Below, one piece after another: positions 7,207-55,659 of a DNA stretch of 62,580 nt (its first letter is position 1; each line of letters starts with the position of its first letter). The stretch is from an uncultured Oscillospiraceae bacterium (lineage in GTDB: Bacteria; Bacillota; Clostridia; Oscillospirales; Oscillospiraceae). The DNA is taken from the NCBI GenBank assembly GCA_944387205.1, contig CALXDZ010000088.1, positions 1-62,580 on the forward strand, read 5' to 3'. The notes under the pieces were generated by a model. It worked only from the letters and a program-made list of their open reading frames with translations, was not told the DNA's origin and searched no databases. A program made the position numbers and the translations under genes.

Positions 7207-8349
7207 ATGGATTTTCATCTGACAAACGAGCAGCTGATGCTCCGTAAGATGTACCGCGACTTTGCCGAGAACGAAGTAAAGCCGTTGGCCGAGGAAATCG
7301 ATGAGGAAGAGCGCTTCCCCATGGAGACCGTCGAGAAGATGGCCAAGCTGGGCATGATGGGCATCTACTTCCCCAAGGAGTACGGCGGTGCAGGCGGCGA
7401 CGTGCTGTCCTATGCCATGTGCGTGGAAGAGCTGGCCAAGGTCTGCGGCACCACTGCTGTTATCGTTTCCGCTCACACCTCCCTGTGCTGCGCTCCCATC
7501 TTTGAGCACGGTACTGAGGAGCAGAAGCGTAAGTATCTGCCCGACCTGCTTTCCGGCAAGAAGATCGGTGCCTTCGGTCTGACCGAGCCCGGCGCCGGCA
7601 CCGATGCTTCCGGCCAGCAGACCACTGCTGTTCTGGAGGGTGATCACTATGTGCTCAACGGCTCCAAGTGCTTCATCACCAACGGCAACGTGGCCGATAC
7701 CTTCGTGGTCTTCGCTATGACCGACAAGAAGGCCGGCAACCACGGCATCTCCGCTTTCATCGTGGAGAAGGACTTCCCCGGCTTCTCTCAGGGCAAGCAC
7801 GAGAAGAAGATGGGTATCCGCGGCAGTTCTACCTGCGACCTGATCTTTGAGGACTGCATCGTGCCCAAGGAGAACCTGCTGGGCAAGGAAGGCAAGGGCT
7901 TCAAGATCGCCATGATGACCCTGGACGGTGGCCGTATCGGTATTGCTGCACAGGCTCTGGGCCTGGGCGAAGGCGCTGTCAACGAGGCTATCAAGTACAC
8001 CAAGGAGCGTGTCCAGTTCGGTAAGCGTCTGAGCCAGTTCCAGAATACCCAGTTCCAGCTGGCTGATATGCACACCCGGATGCAGGCCGCTCAGTTCCTG
8101 GTCTATTCCGCCGCTTGCAAGAAGCAGCTGCATGAGGATTATTCCATGGATGCTGCTATGGCGAAGCTGTTTGCAGCCGAGGCTGCCAGCGATGTGACCC
8201 GCCGTGCCGTTCAGCTGTTCGGCGGCTACGGCTACACCCGTGAGTATCCTGTGGAGCGCATGATGCGCGACGCCAAGATCACTGAGATCTACGAGGGTAC
8301 TTCCGAGGTCCAGCGTATGGTCATTTCCAGCCATCTGGGCGTGAAATAA
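7207..8349 (+). CDS. bcd: Butyryl-CoA dehydrogenase (acyl-CoA dehydrogenase)
   Basis: FAD enzyme that reduces crotonyl-CoA to butyryl-CoA; with EtfAB it bifurcates electrons from NADH to crotonyl-CoA and ferredoxin. 380 residues with the three-domain ACAD fold: the [13 protein letters not shown] flavin segment, [10 protein letters not shown], and the catalytic base Glu363 in [10 protein letters not shown]. Followed 20 bases later by etfB. The pairing with etfB-etfA distinguishes it from beta-oxidation dehydrogenases. Highly biased codon use like its neighbours. Confidence 0.95.
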
Positions 8350-8369
8350 GACAGGAGGTAAAGGTAAAA

Positions 8370-9170
8370 ATGAAAATCATCGTATGTGTGAAGCAGGTTC
8401 CCGATACCTCCGGTAAGGTGGCGGTGAACCCGGATGGCACTCTGAACCGTGCCTCCATGCAGACCATCACCAACCCCGACGATATGAACGCCGTCGAGGC
8501 TGCTCTGAAGATCAAGGACGAGACCGGCTGCAAGGTCATCGTGGTCACCATGGGTCCCCCGCCCGCCGCTGGCATGCTGCGTGAGCTGATGGCCATGGGC
8601 GCTGACGAGGGGTATCTGGTGTCCGCCCGTGAGTTCGGCGGTTCCGATACCTATGCCACCTCTCAGATCGTCGCCGCTGCCGTGAACAAGATCGGCGTGG
8701 AGAAGGATGACATCATCCTGTGCGGCCGTCAGGCCATCGATGGCGATACTGCTCAGGTGGGTCCCCAGATCGCTGAGAAGCTGCATCTGCCCCAGGTTAC
8801 TTATGCCGCCGACATCAAGAAGGACGGCGACACCATTACCGTCAAGCGCATGCTGGAGGACGGCTACATGACCATCAAGGTCAAGACCCCCTGCCTGCTG
8901 ACCTGCATCAAGGAACTCAACGAGCCCCGTTACATGAGCGTGGGCGGCGTATTCGAGGCTTACAGCAAGCCCCTGACCACCCTGGACTATGAGGCTCTGA
9001 AGGACGATCCCCTGATCGACGCCACCACCATCGGCCTGAAGGGTTCTCCCACCAACATCCTGACCTCCTTTACGCCTCCTCAGAAGGGCGCAGGCATGAT
9101 GCTGGAAGGCAACGATATGGCAACCTGCGAGAAGCTGGCTGGTATCCTGGCCAAGAAGCACATCATCTGA
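8370..9170 (+). CDS. etfB: Electron transfer flavoprotein, beta subunit
   Basis: Small subunit of the electron transfer flavoprotein, 266 residues. Starts with the family hallmark MKIIVCVKQVPDT, then the GPP...LRELMAMGADEG segment and the GRQAIDGDTAQVGPQIAE motif that binds the nucleotide/flavin. In clostridial butyrate synthesis EtfAB with Bcd carries out NADH-dependent flavin-based bifurcation. AGGAGG lies 10 bases before the ATG. Translationally close to etfA (18-base gap). Confidence 0.96.
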   Translation: MKIIVCVKQVPDTSGKVAVNPDGTLNRASMQTITNPDDMNAVEAALKIKDETGCKVIVVTMGPPPAAGMLRELMAMGADEGYLVSAREFGGSDTYATSQIVAAAVNKIGVEKDDIILCGRQAIDGDTAQVGPQIAEKLHLPQVTYAADIKKDGDTITVKRMLEDGYMTIKVKTPCLLTCIKELNEPRYMSVGGVFEAYSKPLTTLDYEALKDDPLIDATTIGLKGSPTNILTSFTPPQKGAGMMLEGNDMATCEKLAGILAKKHII

Positions 9171-9188
9171 GAGAGGAGTAAGTGAATT

Positions 9189-10322
9189 ATGGCTTTCAAT
9201 AATACTGATCTGGCTGCTTTCAAGGATGTATGGGTCTTCTGTGAGCAGCGCGAGGGCAAGCTGATGCCCACCGATTTTGAGCTGATCTCCGAGGGTCGCC
9301 GTCTGGCGGATGAGCTGGGCGTGGACCTGTGCGGCCTGCTGCTGGGCGACAACGTGGAAGGCATTGCCAAGGAGCTGGGCGGCTACGGCGCCGACAAGGT
9401 GTACGTGTGCGACCATCCCCTGCTGAAGACCTACACCACTGATGCCTATGCCAAGGTCATCTGCGACGTGATCGAGGACCTCAAGCCCGAGGCCTTCCTG
9501 ATCGGCGCCACCAACATCGGCCGTGACCTGGGCCCCCGCTGCGCGGCTCGTCTGCACACCGGTCTGTGCGCTGACTGCACTCACCTGGATGTGGACATGG
9601 GCATCTACAAGGACTTCCTGCGGGAGGCTTCCACTCTGCCCGAGGAGAAGATCGAGGGTATGGGCGTTGCCAAGGTGCTGGGCCAGGATCACGATGTGTC
9701 CCGTGACCTGAAGATGACCCGTCCTGCATTCGGCGGTCACCTGATGGCTTCCATCATCTGCCCCCGTTTCCGTCCCACTATGGCCACTGTCCGTCCCGGC
9801 GTTATGAAGAAGGCTCCCTTCGATCAGGCCAAGGCTGATGCCTGCGAGATCGTCAAGCCTGCCTTCTCTCTGAGCGAGGCTGACATGGAGACCGAGGTCG
9901 TCGAGGTCGTCAAGGCTGCCAAGAAGCTGGTTGACCTGATCGGCGCTGACTTCATCGTGTCCGTGGGCCGCGGCATCAGCAAGGATGTCGAGGGCGGCAT
10001 CAAGCTGGCAGAGGAACTGGCTGCCGAACTGGGCGGCGTTGTGGGCGGCTCCCGTGCCGTTATCGACTCCGGCTGGCTGAGCGCTGACCACCAGGTTGGT
10101 CAGACCGGCAAGACCGTGCATCCCAAGGTCTATGTTGCTCTGGGCATCTCCGGTGCCATCCAGCACAAGGCCGGCATGCAGGATTCCGAGTGCATCATCG
10201 CGGTGAACAAGAACGACACCGCCCCCATCTTCGAGATCGCTGACTACGGCATCTGCGGCGACCTGTTCAAGGTCACCCCCATGCTGACCGAGGCCATTCG
10301 TGCCGCCAAGGCTGCGAAGTAA
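9189..10322 (+). CDS. etfA: Electron transfer flavoprotein, alpha subunit
   Basis: Large subunit, 377 residues. The C-terminal FAD domain shows VVGGSRAVIDSGW, the HQVGQTGKTV motif and YVALGISGAIQH, diagnostic for EtfA; the N-terminal half has the Etf alpha/beta fold with IGATNIGRDLGPR. Last gene of the operon, followed by a strong terminator. The operon lacks a thiolase and a CoA-transferase, which must lie elsewhere. Confidence 0.96.
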   Translation: MAFNNTDLAAFKDVWVFCEQREGKLMPTDFELISEGRRLADELGVDLCGLLLGDNVEGIAKELGGYGADKVYVCDHPLLKTYTTDAYAKVICDVIEDLKPEAFLIGATNIGRDLGPRCAARLHTGLCADCTHLDVDMGIYKDFLREASTLPEEKIEGMGVAKVLGQDHDVSRDLKMTRPAFGGHLMASIICPRFRPTMATVRPGVMKKAPFDQAKADACEIVKPAFSLSEADMETEVVEVVKAAKKLVDLIGADFIVSVGRGISKDVEGGIKLAEELAAELGGVVGGSRAVIDSGWLSADHQVGQTGKTVHPKVYVALGISGAIQHKAGMQDSECIIAVNKNDTAPIFEIADYGICGDLFKVTPMLTEAIRAAKAAK

Positions 10323-10337
10323 GGGAAATCCCGCTAC

Positions 10338-10372
10338 AAAAAAGAGCCATCCATTTGGATGGCTCTTTTTTA
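10338..10372 (+). terminator. Terminator of the butyrate operon
   Basis: Stem AAAGAGCCATCC with GGATGGCTCTTT and a five-T run, directly after etfA. Confidence 0.92.
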
Positions 10373-10554
10373 CTTTTGTCCCGGCTGTTATCTGGCGTTA
10401 GGAAATCATTTTTCTAAGCGTTGGACTTGTATATTTGCTGACCTGAAACTGCGGAAAGATTGACTTGACCTGTTCCAATTTGCTATTTCTCTGTTGAGAG
10501 CGGAAAAATTTTTGGCTCAATGGGATGCTTTGTCTTCTTGCCGGGTATTACAGA

Positions 10555-18023: not shown

Positions 18024-18153
18024 GCGGCAAGATGAGCCGGAATCAGAAAAAATAGGCTTGTTGCTCCTTGTTATTTTGGCGAAACAGAGGGCAATTATAC
18101 GATTCAGGAACTTTTTCCGGGGAAAAACCGTCTTTTTAGAAGTTGACAAAGGG

Positions 18154-35948: not shown

Positions 35949-36719
35949 TCATAGATTTTTCTTGATGGTGTTGATGGCGTTCTTCTCCAGGCGGGACACC
36001 TGAGCCTGGGAGATGCCCACCTCGCCGGAGACCTCCATCTGGGTCTTGCCCTCGTAAAAGCGCAGGGACAAGATTCGCCGCTCCCGCTCACCCAGGCGCT
36101 TGACCGCCTCCTTCAGGGCGATCTGCTCGATCCAGGCCTCGTCGGTGTTGCGGCTGTCCTTGACCTGGTCCATGACACAGACTGTGTCACCGCCGTCGGA
36201 GTAGATGGGCTCATAGAGTGATACCGGGTCCACAATGGCGTCCATGGCGAACACCACCTCCTCCCGGGGCAGATCCAGCTCTTTGGCGATCTCCTCCACC
36301 GACGGTTCCCGCTGATCCCGGGCCATCAGCTTTTCCTTGGCCTGCAGCACCCGGTAGGCGGTGTCCCGCATACTGCGGGAGACGCGGATGGCGCTGTTGT
36401 CCCGGAGATAGCGGCGGATCTCACCCACGATCATGGGGACGCCGTAGGTGGAGAACCGGACGGGCTGGGTGATATCGAAGTTATCGATGGCCTTGATGAG
36501 CCCCACACAGCCTACCTGAAAGAGGTCGTCCACGTTTTCGCCCCGGTTCAAAAACTTCTGGATGACGGACAGCACCAGCCGCAGATTGCCGTTGATGAGC
36601 TGCTCCCGGGCATCCATGTCCCCCTGCTTGGCCCGGCGCAGAAGCTCCATGGTCTCCTCGTTTTTCAGCACCTTCAGCTTGGAGGTATTGACGCCGCAGA
36701 TCTCAACCTTTCCCTGCAT
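35949..36719 (-). CDS. sigG: Sporulation sigma factor SigG
   Basis: Late forespore sigma factor, 256 residues. Starts with the SigG-specific N-terminus MQGKVEICGVNTSKLKVL, then region 2 (NLRLVLSVIQKFLNRGENVDDLFQVGCVGLIKAIDNFD, FSTYGVPMIVGEIRRYLRD), region 3 (REPSVEEIAKELDLPREEV) and region 4 (ERRILSLRFYEGKTQMEVSGEVGISQAQVSRLEKNAI). Controls spore maturation genes after engulfment. It is transcribed alone from a sigmaF/sigmaG-type promoter (36755-36784), unlike B. subtilis where it follows spoIIG. No frameshift or internal stop. Confidence 0.96.
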   Translation of the reverse strand: MQGKVEICGVNTSKLKVLKNEETMELLRRAKQGDMDAREQLINGNLRLVLSVIQKFLNRGENVDDLFQVGCVGLIKAIDNFDITQPVRFSTYGVPMIVGEIRRYLRDNSAIRVSRSMRDTAYRVLQAKEKLMARDQREPSVEEIAKELDLPREEVVFAMDAIVDPVSLYEPIYSDGGDTVCVMDQVKDSRNTDEAWIEQIALKEAVKRLGERERRILSLRFYEGKTQMEVSGEVGISQAQVSRLEKNAINTIKKNL

Positions 36720-49048: not shown

Positions 49049-49174
49049 TTCCCTTTTCCGGCGGAAAGCGGACCTCTCAGGGGGAGGGCCCTTTCCGCCG
49101 GCGCCGCCCCCTTTTTGCGACGGGATTTCCGGCGGCGCTGTCTTATAATGATGCCGTTGAGAGGGGGGCAGGCC

Positions 49175-50272
49175 ATGACGGTGGTATATGTGGACAGCGT
49201 GTTTTGTCTCAATACCCTGATGGACTACCTGCTTTTGCGCTGCACCGCCCGTCTGGCCGGCGTTCCGCCCAAGCGGTGGCGTCTGCTGCTGGCGGCAGCG
49301 CTGGGAGGCGGCTACGCGGTGGCGGTGTTTCTGCCGGGCTGCGGGTTTCTCTCGGCCCTTCCGGTCAAGCTGGCGGCGGGGGCGGCATTGGCGCTGACAG
49401 CCTTTGGGGCAGAGCGGAGGCTTCTGCGGCTGACACTGCTGTTTCTGGCGGTGTCCTGCGGCTTTGCCGGCTGCGTGCTGGCCCTGGGGCTGCTGTCGGG
49501 GACCAACCCGGTGGTCAATGGAGTCTTTTACACTCAATTTGACGCCAAGGTGCTGGCCATTTCGGCTGCCGCGGCCTACACGGTGCTCAGTGTGGTGTTC
49601 CGCCGGGGCGCCCGCCATGAGGGCGGCCAGCTGTATCAGGGAACGCTTTCCCTCTGGGACAAAGAGGTGGCCTTCACCGCCCTCCACGACAGCGGCAATA
49701 CCCTGGATGACCCGCTGACGGGGGAGCCGGTGCTGGTGATCTGGGCGGGGGCGGCAGAGGCGCTGTGGCCGCCGCAGCTGCGGGCCCTGCTGGGTCCGAA
49801 GGGGGTTTCCCAGCCGGTGGCGGCTCTGGAAAAGCTCCATGCCGCCGCGCCGGAGCAGGCCCGGGCCTTCCGCCTGCTGCCCTATCGGGCAGTTGGGGTG
49901 GCCCAGGGGATGCTGCTGGCGGTGCGCTGTGACTGGATGGAGCTGGACGGGGTCCGGTATCCGGGCCAGGTGGCGGCGCTGTCGGCCACAGAGGTCAGCG
50001 ACGGCGGGGGATATGCGGCCCTGTGGGGCGGCGAAAAGAGAAAGGTGGCAAAAGGGTATGGGACTTTGGCGAAAGCTGCGGGCACTGCTGGGACGGTTAG
50101 GACTGCTGCGGCCCGGCAAGGTGATGTACATAGGGGGGAGCGACACACTGCCGCCGCCCCTGAGCCGGGAAGAGGAGGCAGAGCTTCTGGGGCGCCTGGA
50201 CCAGGAGGATGCCCGGCAGGTGCTGATCGAGCGGAACCTAAGGCTGGTGGTGTACATCGCCCGGCGCTTTGA
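49175..50272 (+). CDS. spoIIGA: Sporulation sigma-E processing peptidase SpoIIGA
   Basis: Membrane aspartic protease that activates pro-SigE in the mother cell. N-terminus [19 protein letters not shown], then five hydrophobic helices and a soluble protease domain with the catalytic [17 protein letters not shown] (Asp-Ser-Gly). ATG 49175 follows GAGGGGGG. The conserved part ends at [10 protein letters not shown] (near 50033), where the family usually stops; the frame here runs on without a stop to 50272, giving 365 residues and overlapping the 5' part of sigE by 215 bases. The added 79 residues (Ala/Gly/Arg/Pro) look like translated sigE DNA in another frame. Confidence 0.9.
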
Positions 50273-50759
50273 AAATACTGGAGTGGGCATCGAGGACCTG
50301 ATCTCCATCGGGACCATCGGCCTTATCAAAGCGGTGGGGACCTATCGCACGGACAAGAATATCAAGCTGGCCACCTATGCCTCCCGATGCATCGAAAACG
50401 AGATTTTGATGTATCTGCGGAAAAACGCCTCCCGGCGGGGCGAGGTGTCCTTTGATGAGCCGCTGAACACCGACTGGGATGGCAATGAATTGCTGCTCAG
50501 CGACGTGCTGGGCACCGACGCGGACACTGTTATGCGGCCCATCTAGGAGGACGTGGACCGGCGGCTGCTGCGCACGGCGGTGGGGACACTGTCGGAGAGG
50601 GAAAAGGAAATCATCACGCTGCGCTTTGGGCTCCAGGGCGGTAAGGAGCAGACCCAGAAGGAGGTGGCGGACCGCCTGGGCATCTCCCAGAGCTACATCT
50701 CCCGGCTGGAGAAGCGGATCATCCAGCGGCTGAAGAAGGAGATCTTGCGGCTTTCCTGA
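50058..50759 (+). pseudogene. sigE: Sporulation sigma factor SigE interrupted by an in-frame TAG
   Basis: Mother-cell sigma factor. The frame from ATG 50058 gives the SigE N-terminus ([49 protein letters not shown]) and region 2-3 through [22 protein letters not shown], then stops at TAG 50544-50546. The same frame goes on with the rest of Sig[13 protein letters not shown], region 4 with [22 protein letters not shown], ending at 50759. In B. subtilis the aligned residue is Glu, so one G-to-T change (GAG to TAG) explains it. Full read-through would give 233 residues, close to the normal 239. As written, a 162-residue protein without region 4 is made. A GTG at 50553, just behind a TAGGAGG that includes the stop codon, could restart translation, but the 2-base spacing is poor. 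Confidence 0.85.
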
Positions 50760-50827: not shown

Positions 50828-51088
50828 GAAACAGGCGAAGAAGGGAAGCAGTAGGCGAACGGCAGAGCCTCAGAGAGGGGACGGATGGTGCAAGTCCCTG
50901 CCAGGCCGCCGCTGAAGTCGTCCCGGAGCCTTGGGCTGAACGGTATTTCCCAGTAGGCGCCAACGGGTCCTCCCGTTACAGAGGAGCGGCGTGTCTGCGC
51001 CGCATGAGTGCGTGCGTCAAGCACGAATCCAGGTGGTACCACGGACATTTGTTCGCCCTGAGTCTAGGACTCAGGGCGTTTTTGTTTG
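50828..51088 (+). promoter_or_regulatory. T-box leader of valS
   Basis: The region has stem I features (AGAGAGGGG at 50872-50880 and GGTGCAAG), a specifier candidate GTC (Val) at 50917-50919 in a CTGAAGTC context, and the T-box sequence AGGTGGTACCACGG at 51031-51044. A terminator (51053-51088) follows. Uncharged tRNA-Val pairs with the specifier and the T-box and turns transcription on. Confidence 0.93.
51053..51088 (+). terminator. T-box terminator of valS
   Basis: Stem CGCCCTGAGTC with GACTCAGGGCG and a T run. The alternative antiterminator uses the T-box sequence upstream. Confidence 0.85.
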
Positions 51089-51172: not shown

Positions 51173-53821
51173 ATGAAAAAAGAACTGCCAAAGGTGTATG
51201 AACCGCAACAGGTGGAGAGCCGCATCTATCAGATGTGGATGGACGGGGACTGCTTCAACGGCGACCCTGATCCCAAGAAGCCTCCCTTTTCCATCGTCAT
51301 GCCCCCGCCCAACGTCACCGGCCAGCTCCATATGGGCCACGCCCTGGACTGCACCCTCCAGGATATCCTGACCCGTTTCAAGCGGATGCAGGGCTACTCC
51401 ACGCTGTGGCTGCCCGGCGTGGACCACGCTGGTATCGCTACCCAGATCAAGGTGGAGGAGGAACTGCGCACCAAGGAGGGCCTGACCCGCTATGACCTGG
51501 GCCGTGAAAAGTTCCTCCAGCGCGTGTGGAAGTGGAAGGAAGAATACGGCGGCCGCATCGTGGAGCAGCAGAAGAAGATGGGCGTCTCCTGCGACTGGAG
51601 CCGTTCCCGCTTCACCATGGACAAGGGCCTTTCCAAGGCCGTCCGGGAGACCTTCTGTGAGCTCTACGACAAGGGCCTTATCTACAAGGGCAGCCGTGTC
51701 ATCAACTGGTGTCCTCACTGCGCCACTGCCCTTTCCGACGCAGAGGTGGAGTATCAGGACAAGCCCGGTCATCTGTGGTATATCCGCTATCCTCTCACCG
51801 ACGGCTCCGGCGATCTGGTCATCGCCACCACCCGGCCTGAGACCATGATGGGCGATACCGGCGTGGCCGTCAATCCCGAGGACGAGCGGTTCAAGGACCT
51901 GGTGGGCAAGACCTGCATCCTACCTATTATGAACCGGGAGATCCCCATTGTGGCCGATGAGTACGTGGAGCTGGGATTTGGTACCGGCGCCGTGAAGATG
52001 ACGCCTGCTCATGACCCCAACGACTTTGAGGTGGGTCTGCGTCATAACCTGGAGGTCATCCACTGCATTGGTGACGACGGAAAGATCAATGAAAACGGCG
52101 GTCCTTACAATGGTATGGACCGGTATGAGTGCCGCAAGCAGATCGTCAAGGATCTGGAGGAGCAGGGGTATCTGGTCAAGACCGAGCCCTACAGCCACAA
52201 CGTGGGTACCTGCTACCGCTGCCACAACGACGTGGAGCCCATGATCTCCGCCCAGTGGTTCGTGAAGATGGAGCCTCTGGCCAAGGAGGCGCTGCGGGTG
52301 GTGAAGGACGGCGAGGTCAAGTTCGTCCCCGAGCGCTTCTCCAAGACCTATATCAACTGGATGGAGAATGTCCACGACTGGTGCATCTCCCGTCAGCTGT
52401 GGTGGGGCCATCAGATCCCCGCCTGGTACTGCGATGACTGCGGTCACATCAATGTGGGCCGCACCGATCCCACCAAGTGCGAAAAGTGCGGCTCTGAGCA
52501 CCTGACCCGGGACGAGGACGTGCTGGATACCTGGTTCTCCTCTGCTCTGTGGCCATTCTCCACCATGGGCTGGCCGGAAAAGACAGCGGATCTGGACTTC
52601 TACTATCCCACCTCCGTTATGGTCACCGGCTACGACATCATCTTCTTCTGGGTGGCCCGGATGATCTTCTCCGGCTGCGAGCAGATGCATGAGATCCCCT
52701 TCCACACCGTTCTGATCCACGGTCTGGTCCGGGACGACAAGGGCCGGAAGATGTCCAAGTCTCTGGGCAACGGTATCGACCCGCTGGAGATGGCTGAGAA
52801 GTACGGTGCTGACGCACTGCGCTTCAATCTTATCACCGGCAACAGCCCCGGCAATGACACCCGGTTCTACACGGAGAAGTGCGAGGCCATGCGCAATTTC
52901 GCCAACAAGGTCTGGAACGCCAGCCGCTTCGTGATGATGAACCTGACCATCGACAAGTGCACTCTGCCGGCGGCGGAGCAGCTGGAGCAGGAGGACAAGT
53001 GGGTCCTCTCCAAGCTCAACACCCTGGTCAAGGAGGTCACTGAAAACCTGGACAGCTACGAGATCGGCGTGGCCTCTGCCAAGGTCTATGACTTCCTGTG
53101 GGATACCTTCTGCGACTGGTATATCGAGCTGACCAAGACCCGTCTGGGCGGCGACGACGAGAGCGCCAAGCTGACGGCGCAGAATGTCCTTTGCTATGTG
53201 CTGACGGATCTTTTGAAGCTGCTGCATCCCTTCATGCCTTTCCTGACCGAGGAGATCTGGCAGGCCCTGCCCAAGATGGAGGGCGAGGAGAGCGGCTACC
53301 TGATGACCGCTCAGTGGCCTGAATACCGTTCCGAACTCAGCTTCCCCCAGGAAGAGGCTGCTATGGAGACGGTGATGGACACCATCAAGGCCATCCGGGC
53401 CCGGCGCTCCGAAATGAACGTGCCCCCCTCCCGGAAGGCGGAGGTGCTGATTGTCACTGCTACCCCGGACATCTATGCCCAGGGTCTCCACTTCCTGGAG
53501 CGTCTGGCCTACGCCAGTGCTGTGACCTTTGCGGATGCCGCGCCTGCGGATGTCAGCGGAATGGTCAGCGTGGTCACTTCCAATGCCACAGTCTATATGC
53601 CCTTGAGTGAGCTGGTGGACATTGCCGCAGAGTTGGAGCGGATCGCCAAGGAGAAGGAGAAGGCTGAAAACGGCCTGCGCATTGTGGAGCAGAAGCTCAG
53701 CAATGAGAAGTTCGTCTCCCGTGCTCCTGAGGCGGTGGTCAACGCCGAGCGGGAGAAGGCCACCAAGTACAAGGAGCTGATCGCTCAGCTGGAGGCCTCT
53801 GCCAAGGCCATGGGCAACTAA
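51173..53821 (+). CDS. valS: Valyl-tRNA synthetase
   Basis: Class Ia synthetase, 882 residues. HIGH motif as HMGH in NVTGQLHMGHALD, the CP1 editing domain in the middle (with TGVAVNPEDERFKDLVG), KMSKS in RKMSKSLGNGIDPL, anticodon-binding helical domain, and the C-terminal coiled coil (ELERIAKEKEKAENGLRIVEQKL). Highly biased codon use. ATG preceded by GAGGAGAAG. Controlled by the Val T-box in its leader. Confidence 0.97.
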   Translation: MKKELPKVYEPQQVESRIYQMWMDGDCFNGDPDPKKPPFSIVMPPPNVTGQLHMGHALDCTLQDILTRFKRMQGYSTLWLPGVDHAGIATQIKVEEELRTKEGLTRYDLGREKFLQRVWKWKEEYGGRIVEQQKKMGVSCDWSRSRFTMDKGLSKAVRETFCELYDKGLIYKGSRVINWCPHCATALSDAEVEYQDKPGHLWYIRYPLTDGSGDLVIATTRPETMMGDTGVAVNPEDERFKDLVGKTCILPIMNREIPIVADEYVELGFGTGAVKMTPAHDPNDFEVGLRHNLEVIHCIGDDGKINENGGPYNGMDRYECRKQIVKDLEEQGYLVKTEPYSHNVGTCYRCHNDVEPMISAQWFVKMEPLAKEALRVVKDGEVKFVPERFSKTYINWMENVHDWCISRQLWWGHQIPAWYCDDCGHINVGRTDPTKCEKCGSEHLTRDEDVLDTWFSSALWPFSTMGWPEKTADLDFYYPTSVMVTGYDIIFFWVARMIFSGCEQMHEIPFHTVLIHGLVRDDKGRKMSKSLGNGIDPLEMAEKYGADALRFNLITGNSPGNDTRFYTEKCEAMRNFANKVWNASRFVMMNLTIDKCTLPAAEQLEQEDKWVLSKLNTLVKEVTENLDSYEIGVASAKVYDFLWDTFCDWYIELTKTRLGGDDESAKLTAQNVLCYVLTDLLKLLHPFMPFLTEEIWQALPKMEGEESGYLMTAQWPEYRSELSFPQEEAAMETVMDTIKAIRARRSEMNVPPSRKAEVLIVTATPDIYAQGLHFLERLAYASAVTFADAAPADVSGMVSVVTSNATVYMPLSELVDIAAELERIAKEKEKAENGLRIVEQKLSNEKFVSRAPEAVVNAEREKATKYKELIAQLEASAKAMGN

Positions 53822-54133: not shown

Positions 54134-54439
54134 ATGGAGATTCGGGAAAAGACCGTGGACCGCAATCTGCTGCTGGAGCTGTCCGGCGAGCTAGACCATC
54201 ACGCTGCCCGCAAGGCGATGGAGGAGATGGAGATGGCCATTGACGCGGCAGTGCCGCTGAAGCTGGTGCTGGATTTGGGTGGCGTCACCTTCATGGACAG
54301 CTCCGGCATTGCCCTGCTTTTGCGGGCCCGGCGCCGGATGGAGGCGCTGGGGGGGAATCTCATGGTGTGTCATGTGCCAGACCAGGCCCGCCGGGTCCTG
54401 GACGCAGCGGGGATCAACCGATTGATCACCATCCGCTGA
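54134..54439 (+). CDS. spoIIAA: Anti-sigma-F factor antagonist SpoIIAA
   Basis: STAS-domain protein, 101 residues, that frees sigma-F by binding SpoIIAB. The phosphorylated Ser sits in VTFMDSSGIALLL, as in SpoIIAA. The NLLLELSGELDHHAARKA beginning and LVLDLGGV are typical STAS strands. First gene of the spoIIA operon. AAAGGGGAAA precedes the ATG. Confidence 0.94.
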   Translation: MEIREKTVDRNLLLELSGELDHHAARKAMEEMEMAIDAAVPLKLVLDLGGVTFMDSSGIALLLRARRRMEALGGNLMVCHVPDQARRVLDAAGINRLITIR

Positions 54440-54502
54440 GGCGGGGAAGGAGAATTTCAGCGGGCTTGCCGGAGGCGGGGCCGCATGACAGGAGGAAGCG
54501 AT

Positions 54503-54946
54503 ATGAAAACGAGCAACTACATAAACATGGAATTTTTGAGCCGCAGCAGCAATGAGGCTTTTGCCCGGGTGGCAGTGGCCTGCTTTGCCGCCCAGCTGGA
54601 CCCCACGCTGGATGAGATCGGAGACATCAAGACGGCGGTCAGCGAGGCGGTCACCAACGCCATCGTTCACGCCTATCCAGATGAGCTGGGAAAAATCAGC
54701 CTCAAGGCCCGCATCTATGAGGGGAATGTGCTGGAGCTGGTCATCAAGGACTGGGGCAGGGGCATCCCGGATGTGGAGCAGGCCCGGCAGCCTCTCTTCA
54801 CCACCGGCGGCGAAGAGCGCAGCGGCATGGGCTTTACCATTATGGAGAGCTTTATGGACCGTCTCAGTGTCCGCTCCCGAGTGGGAAAGGGCACCACCGT
54901 GACCATGCGCAAGCGGATCTCGGTCCGGGCCACTGGTGCGAAATGA
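54503..54946 (+). CDS. spoIIAB: Anti-sigma-F factor SpoIIAB
   Basis: GHKL-type kinase and anti-sigma factor, 147 residues. N-box VSEAVTNAIVHAY, G1 box VIKDWGRGIPD, and GGEERSGMGFTIMESFMD; the C-terminus GKGTTVTMRKRI is typical. Start at ATG 54503 with AGGAGG 8 bases upstream. It overlaps sigF by an ATGA. It phosphorylates SpoIIAA and holds sigma-F in the predivisional cell. Confidence 0.94.
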   Translation: MKTSNYINMEFLSRSSNEAFARVAVACFAAQLDPTLDEIGDIKTAVSEAVTNAIVHAYPDELGKISLKARIYEGNVLELVIKDWGRGIPDVEQARQPLFTTGGEERSGMGFTIMESFMDRLSVRSRVGKGTTVTMRKRISVRATGAK

Positions 54947-55659
54947 CCGCCACACAGGAGGAAAACCTGGCTCTGCTGCAGGCGGCGCAGCAGGGGGACC
55001 AGGAGGCCTGTGAACGGGTGCTGACGGAAAACAACGGCCTGATCTGGAGCATCGTGCGGCGCTACTACGGCCGAGGTGTGGAGCCTGAAGATCTGTATCA
55101 GCTGGGGTGCCTTGGCTTTTTGAAGGCAGTCCAGGGCTTTGACTTCAGCTATGGCACCTGTTTTTCTACCTATGCTGTGCCTAAGATCGCCGGAGAGATC
55201 CGGCGGTTTCTCCGGGATGATGGAGCAGTGAAAGTAGGACGAAGCCTTCGGGAGCAAGCACAAATGCTTTACACTGTGCGGGAGCGCCTGCGGCAGGAGC
55301 TGGGCCGGGAACCGGTCCTTTCGGAGCTGTCCCAGGCCACCGGACTAGAGGTGGAGGAGATCGCCCGGGCGGATCTGGCGGCCGGTGCGCCGGAATCCCT
55401 CCAGCAGGAGACTGCAGAGGGGCTGACTCTGGAAGGAATGCTGGGCACCGAGGCACCAGAGGAGAGCATGGTGGAGCGCATCGCTCTGCGGGAGGCCATT
55501 GACCGGCTGCCGGAGAAGGAGAAGCTCACGATTCTCCTGCGCTTTTATAAGGGGCTGACCCAGGAGCAGGTGGCAAAGGTGCTGGGGGTGTCCCAAGTCC
55601 AGGTGTCCCGCCTGGAGCGCCGGGGGATCGGACATCTGCGGGAGAGCTTTGGGCCCTGA
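54943..55659 (+). CDS. sigF: Sporulation sigma factor SigF
   Basis: Early forespore sigma factor, 238 residues. Region 2 with NNGLIWSIVRRYYGRGVEPEDLYQLGCLGFLKAVQGFD and FSTYAVPKIAGEIRRFLRDD, region 3 with REPVLSELSQATGLEVEEI, region 4 with KEKLTILLRFYKGLTQEQVAKVLGVSQVQVSRLERRGI. Intact and of normal length, in contrast to sigE. The minus-strand DUF4130 gene overlaps its last 134 bases. No terminator is seen after it. Confidence 0.95.
   Translation: MTATQEENLALLQAAQQGDQEACERVLTENNGLIWSIVRRYYGRGVEPEDLYQLGCLGFLKAVQGFDFSYGTCFSTYAVPKIAGEIRRFLRDDGAVKVGRSLREQAQMLYTVRERLRQELGREPVLSELSQATGLEVEEIARADLAAGAPESLQQETAEGLTLEGMLGTEAPEESMVERIALREAIDRLPEKEKLTILLRFYKGLTQEQVAKVLGVSQVQVSRLERRGIGHLRESFGP

Follow-up and report, generated by a model that had tools for sequence, protein, structure and literature searches.

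Does the sigE gene of an uncultured Oscillospiraceae bacterium still give a single sigma factor when its reading frame carries a TAG, at 50544-50546, and then continues in the same frame? The original prediction offered four explanations for this TAG: a fresh mutation, an assembly error, programmed read-through, or translation in two pieces. The stretch of DNA analysed here (the window) is contig C88, 62,580 bases, of the draft genome of this bacterium, which comprises 2.42 Mb in 155 contigs and is, per its record, 86% complete and 5% contaminated. Its nearest named relatives are likewise Oscillospiraceae draft genomes.

Several comparison sets were used. The genus set comprised 86 genomes. 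A full-length sigE was present in 73 of them, one being the source genome, and all 72 from the relatives were aligned; the 13 genomes with no full-length match, among them one that is 95% complete (G032), were left out of the 72. For the codon comparison the genus loci were joined by a further 80, taken from named genome records, giving 172 loci and, after removal of duplicates, 150 distinct contexts besides our own. The family-level SigE search covered 400 genomes, with the best matches listed, and the lesion scan of the window used compared stretches of six relatives (G001, G003, G006, G070, G084, and G085).

The TAG is present in the assembly as codon 163 of a sigE frame that runs from ATG 50058 to TGA 50757-50759, with 162 codons ahead of the stop and 70 behind it. 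Read through the TAG, the frame (50058-50756) scores 369.4 bits against the SigE equivalog model TIGR02835 (cut-off 348.6) with one internal stop, while neither half reaches the cut-off alone (Table 1). By E-value against this model, it ranks fifth among the 73 full-length matches in the 86 genus genomes. Its position is also that of sigE, the frame directly upstream giving a match to SpoIIGA (TIGR02854, below cut-off). The proposed continuation of the frame with a conserved region 4 to 50759 was borne out by both TIGR02835 and the Sigma70_r4 match of the second half. The stop had been placed exactly between sigma regions 3 and 4; it does lie ahead of region 4, but Pfam at E<=1 detected region 3 in neither half. 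Because Pfam matches only region 2 and region 4, the safer wording would be that the TAG appears to lie in the linker before region 4. A second intact sigE was also sought in the genome: the other TIGR02835 matches score lower, and those examined are sigK pieces, sigG, and sigF (matches on contigs C74 and C115 were left out).

Table 1. Coordinates of sigE, its stop, and the other sporulation features considered (window positions unless a locus is given).
Feature	Coordinates	Strand	Evidence
sigE up to the TAG (162 codons), with the pro-sequence and region 2	50058..50543	+	TIGR02835 251.4 bits (model 8-161); Sigma70_r2 (residues 56-124 of this half)
In-frame TAG; Glu in relatives, Asp in 4 distant ones	50544..50546	+	codon alignment
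AGGAGG and GTG 50553, proposed restart; apparent by-product of Glu-Glu-Asp-Val coding	50545..50555	+	occurs in stop-free relatives; 2 nt spacer
Remainder of the sigE frame, 70 codons, region 4, then TGA	50547..50759	+	TIGR02835 102.6 bits (model 165-233 of 234); Sigma70_r4 (residues 12-64 of this half)
spoIIGA (protease for pro-SigE), open	49115..50272	+	TIGR02854 126.7 bits, cut-off 209.55, sole family match; stop 50270-50272
spoIIAA, spoIIAB, sigF, open frames	54134..55659	+	SpoIIAB above cut-off; SpoIIAA, SigF below
sigG, open	35949..36719	-	NF006071 438.6 bits (cut-off 372); TIGR02850 434.8 bits (cut-off 457)
sigK N piece with recombinase alongside	L007:1423-1629; L007:1586-3115	+; -	sigK; large serine recombinase
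sigK C piece	L213:357-824	-	region 4 match ends at 41 of 50

We then asked which codon relatives carry at this site. All 72 full-length sigE genes of the same genus have Glu (GAG in 58, GAA in 14) and none contains a stop; the closest of them, a set that includes no conspecific, is 83% identical in DNA to our sequence. The same holds more widely: the 150 distinct other contexts encode Glu in 146 cases, Asp in 4, and a stop in none. Our sigE was also the only one with a stop among the matches listed in the search of 400 family genomes. The one other stop among the listed genus matches belongs to G009, in a fragment that is short and of sigK type; no relative's full-length sigE has one. The TAG is thus private to the source genome among the relatives examined. 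That the aligned residue of Bacillus SigE is Glu, as had been stated, agrees with the B. subtilis sequence given in the part of PMC10141391 available to us, aligned by eye. A Glu codon in related genomes had been named as support for a mutation and a conserved TAG as support for recoding; the comparison, with Glu in 72/72, favours mutation.

The age of the stop was estimated from the private changes of our sequence at positions whose conservation across the 72 relatives is 97% or more. Behind the stop there were 0 such changes at 47 conserved sites (72/72 relatives have as many or more), and ahead of it 1 at 93 (16/72 have as many or more). At a looser conservation of 90%, the counts were 1/52 behind and 2/103 ahead. 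Since region 4 shows no decay, the stop must be young if the segment behind it is free to drift; an undecayed region 4 would also be expected were region 4 still made. The Poisson upper bound for change since the stop is <0.029 substitutions/site for the second part and 0.015 for both parts, a rough figure that assumes free change without selection. Such values agree with a change that arose inside the species, and also with no change having taken place.

To see how the rest of the contig compares, we used a best-frame scan in place of an earlier lesion scan that had been swamped by wrong-frame ORFs. Its 44 best-frame homologous segments cover 43,346 of the 62,580 window bases, and 50544 is the sole stop in them with good identity on both sides, seen against all five relatives with sigE in the compared stretches. 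Stops at 18045, 22029, and 54110 were rejected, since each rests on a single relative whose identity is 20-35% on one flank or both. One segment, 8347-10379, was scored in an antisense frame, and its two plus-strand ORFs (266 and 377 aa) are open. The frameshift search of the earlier scan listed six candidates, with up to three listed for any one place: one is a frame change in spoIIGA of the relative G085, and the other five (near 8366, 9185, 40646, and 41821) were discarded, the ORFs at those places being open. Within its own contig, the window, the lesion is therefore isolated, and the contig does not look error-ridden, because the conserved frames compared, 43,346 bases in all, contain no further convincing stop.

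The remaining sporulation genes had been described as intact. Those named, spoIIGA, spoIIAA, spoIIAB, sigF, and sigG, are indeed open, and for each the best-matching sporulation family is the right one; however, SpoIIAA matches the wider anti-sigma antagonist family best and SigF the SigF/SigG subfamily, SpoIIAA, SigF, and SpoIIGA stay below curated cut-offs, and SigG lies above the cut-off of one model and below that of the other (Table 1). Spo0A (286.9 bits), SpoIVA (697.8), and SpoIIR (167.2) exceed their cut-offs and contain no stops. The sporulation pathway looks recently used, and its apparent retention would be surprising after an ancient loss of spore formation.

The protease gene overlaps its substrate gene, the spoIIGA stop lying 215 nt into sigE (window 50058-50272). 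In many genus loci, duplicates included, this stop falls 58-214 nt inside sigE, and in the majority of the more remote loci from named records it precedes sigE. In the single-contig genome G085 (L224, G085:C1:4000-23500), spoIIGA changes frame shortly before it ends, which places it in one open frame of 567 aa with sigE; a SpoIIGA-SigE fusion is possible there, and sigE in that genome retains its own ATG with GGAG ahead of it.

Two of the proposed explanations would preserve a working SigE. If the TAG were read through by design, full-length SigE would be made, and the frame behind the TAG is indeed intact and conserved. The stop is, however, found in no relative, and the gene for RF1 is present without a stop in the source genome. 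No CTA-anticodon tRNA was found among the 30 loci scanned, which cover all but two of the 32 tRNA matches, the two lacking a separate locus; as the genome is 86% complete, a tRNA gene may be missing from it. The 100 bases behind the TAG fold no better than shuffles (z 0.26). TAG also serves to end other genes of the window. Among five ORFs with a terminal TAG that were compared with relatives, three finish no more than one residue away from the relatives' copies, which use another stop in 7/9 cases and TAG in 2/9; the remaining two comprise one unmatched in the compared stretches and one with weak matches (29-43% identity) and blurred ends. Neither a stop conserved in relatives, conspecifics lying outside the comparison, nor a decoding tRNA or structure was thus found, and we regard read-through as barely credible. 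The alternative of two chains, with the TAG ending the first and reinitiation at GTG 50553, or at another start close by, supplying region 4 as a partner, draws on the AGGAGG that overlaps the stop, the in-frame GTG that follows it, the undecayed region 4, and the precedent of SigO-RsoA in B. subtilis, a two-chain sigma factor described in the available part of PMC10141391. This precedent makes the idea not absurd, though it has no support here. GGAGG occurs in 51 of the 72 stop-free relatives, GTG at the matching codon in 59, and both in 43. The spacer between the AGGAGG (50545-50550) and GTG 50553 measures 2 nt. Ribosome-binding sites usually stand further than this from the start codon. For these two reasons, the 43/72 relatives and the 2 nt spacing, the arrangement is best read as a by-product of the protein-coding sequence; no separate region 4 start stands out beyond coding coincidence, and the split occurs in no relative. 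It is very improbable that one codon change made SigE a pair of chains working together, with ribosomes stopping at the TAG and reinitiating at the AGGAGG that overlaps it; this would mean that a sigma factor of two subunits had newly arisen in a lineage that sporulates. The two-piece translation from which it would follow is very improbable too.

The simplest account is a private, young stop in sigE, either real or a base-call error. Under the second option, which covers faults of sequencing or assembly as well as a base from a minority strain taken into the consensus, the prevailing form of sigE would have Glu and SigE would be normal. This fits a draft in 155 contigs, a stop private to this genome in undecayed surroundings, and open frames in the other sporulation genes checked; the scan of its contig, which turned up no further convincing stop in the 43,346 bases compared, speaks against it. 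We consider such an error unlikely but a serious contender. The Glu in 72/72 relatives, the private stop, the absence of decay, and the isolated lesion fit both a fresh mutation and an error, and they do not separate the two. We favour, at a probability of roughly two in three, a private nonsense change of one codon, very recent in origin, in a sigE that is normal elsewhere. For it count the stop-free state of 72/72 genus sequences and 150/150 distinct contexts, as would be seen with a recent nonsense pseudogene, the undecayed sequence on both sides, and the lone lesion, together with the intact RF1, the absence of a CTA tRNA among the loci scanned, the three other genes that TAG ends where relatives end, and the stop-free Spo0A, SpoIVA, and SpoIIR. 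The observation on sigE is correct and the biology is ordinary; no new mechanism is shown.

If the nonsense allele is real, translation would end at codon 163, and the truncated SigE, having no region 4, would fail to read -35 elements. Because SigE would then end before region 4, the SigE step would presumably not be passed: from established knowledge of SigE, mother-cell development would halt there and carriers would form no spores. Should the stop be present in the reads, the window would offer a snapshot of sporulation loss at a first step: one codon has changed in the sigma gene that comes first in the mother cell, with the other checked genes still open.

Sporulation loss recurs in gut Firmicutes, as the accessible portion of PMC8340488 describes. 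The present case resembles it in that a sporulation-specific gene is out of action while relatives keep theirs; there, however, genes are missing, whereas here one codon of sigE is affected and the other checked genes are open. In serial patient isolates of C. difficile, the part of PMC3655144 available to us lists 21 variants, of which one is non-synonymous in SigE and 4 are premature stops. Point variants, some of them premature stops and one of them in SigE, thus arose there inside the host in a short time; the SigE variant was, however, a non-synonymous change rather than a stop and came from isolates for which there are reads, whereas ours is an assembly consensus. SigO-RsoA (PMC10141391, in the same available part) would be alike in carrying regions 2-3 and region 4 on separate chains, provided that the second sigE part is made, but it is a standing two-chain system, whereas ours is one stop in one assembly that is absent from the relatives examined. 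PMC3171730 was set aside as a precedent, since the nonsense mutation in its available text is in another gene. Our literature search named no split or read-through SigE, and it supports no claim of absence. Across the family, a SigE-model match better than 1e-30 is missing in 19/245 good genomes, by an eye count that missing contigs may explain in part. By the same kind of count, SigE is apparently absent from particular groups, with no match better than 1e-30 in 8/9 sampled genomes of the genus labelled g9, 3/3 of genus g42, and 3/9 of genus g5.

Another sigma gene of the mother cell whose genomic copy looks broken is sigK with its skin element, as far as PMC5025042 was available to us, and the sigK of our own genome is split likewise; our sigE is unlike it in containing no insert, and excision could therefore not restore it. 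The sigK pieces lie on two contigs, the N piece on C68 beside a large serine recombinase and the C piece on C144, the split falling after ..NLRLVAHIVKK at about residue 69. In two relatives, G001 and G008 (L244-L248), both pieces are on one strand, at distances of 11.0 and 15.8 kb, and a large serine recombinase lies between them. This arrangement has the layout of a skin element, and our own split appears to be of the same kind. Matches in G041 and G032 suggest a sigK split near model position 113-119, with pieces 35 and 23 kb apart, and skin-like elements may use two different sigK sites within one genus.

Our sigK C piece falls about ten positions short of the end of region 4 and finishes in ..SRSYVSRRH followed by a stop, inside the helix-turn-helix. 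The sigK matches of several genus relatives end at model position 216-220, and a short SigK tail may be a trait of the lineage. Downstream of sigE, a T-box leader (RF00230, 111.6 bits) lies at window 50829-51063 on the plus strand, ahead of the ORF 51173-53821, which from its sequence we take to resemble valyl-tRNA synthetase.
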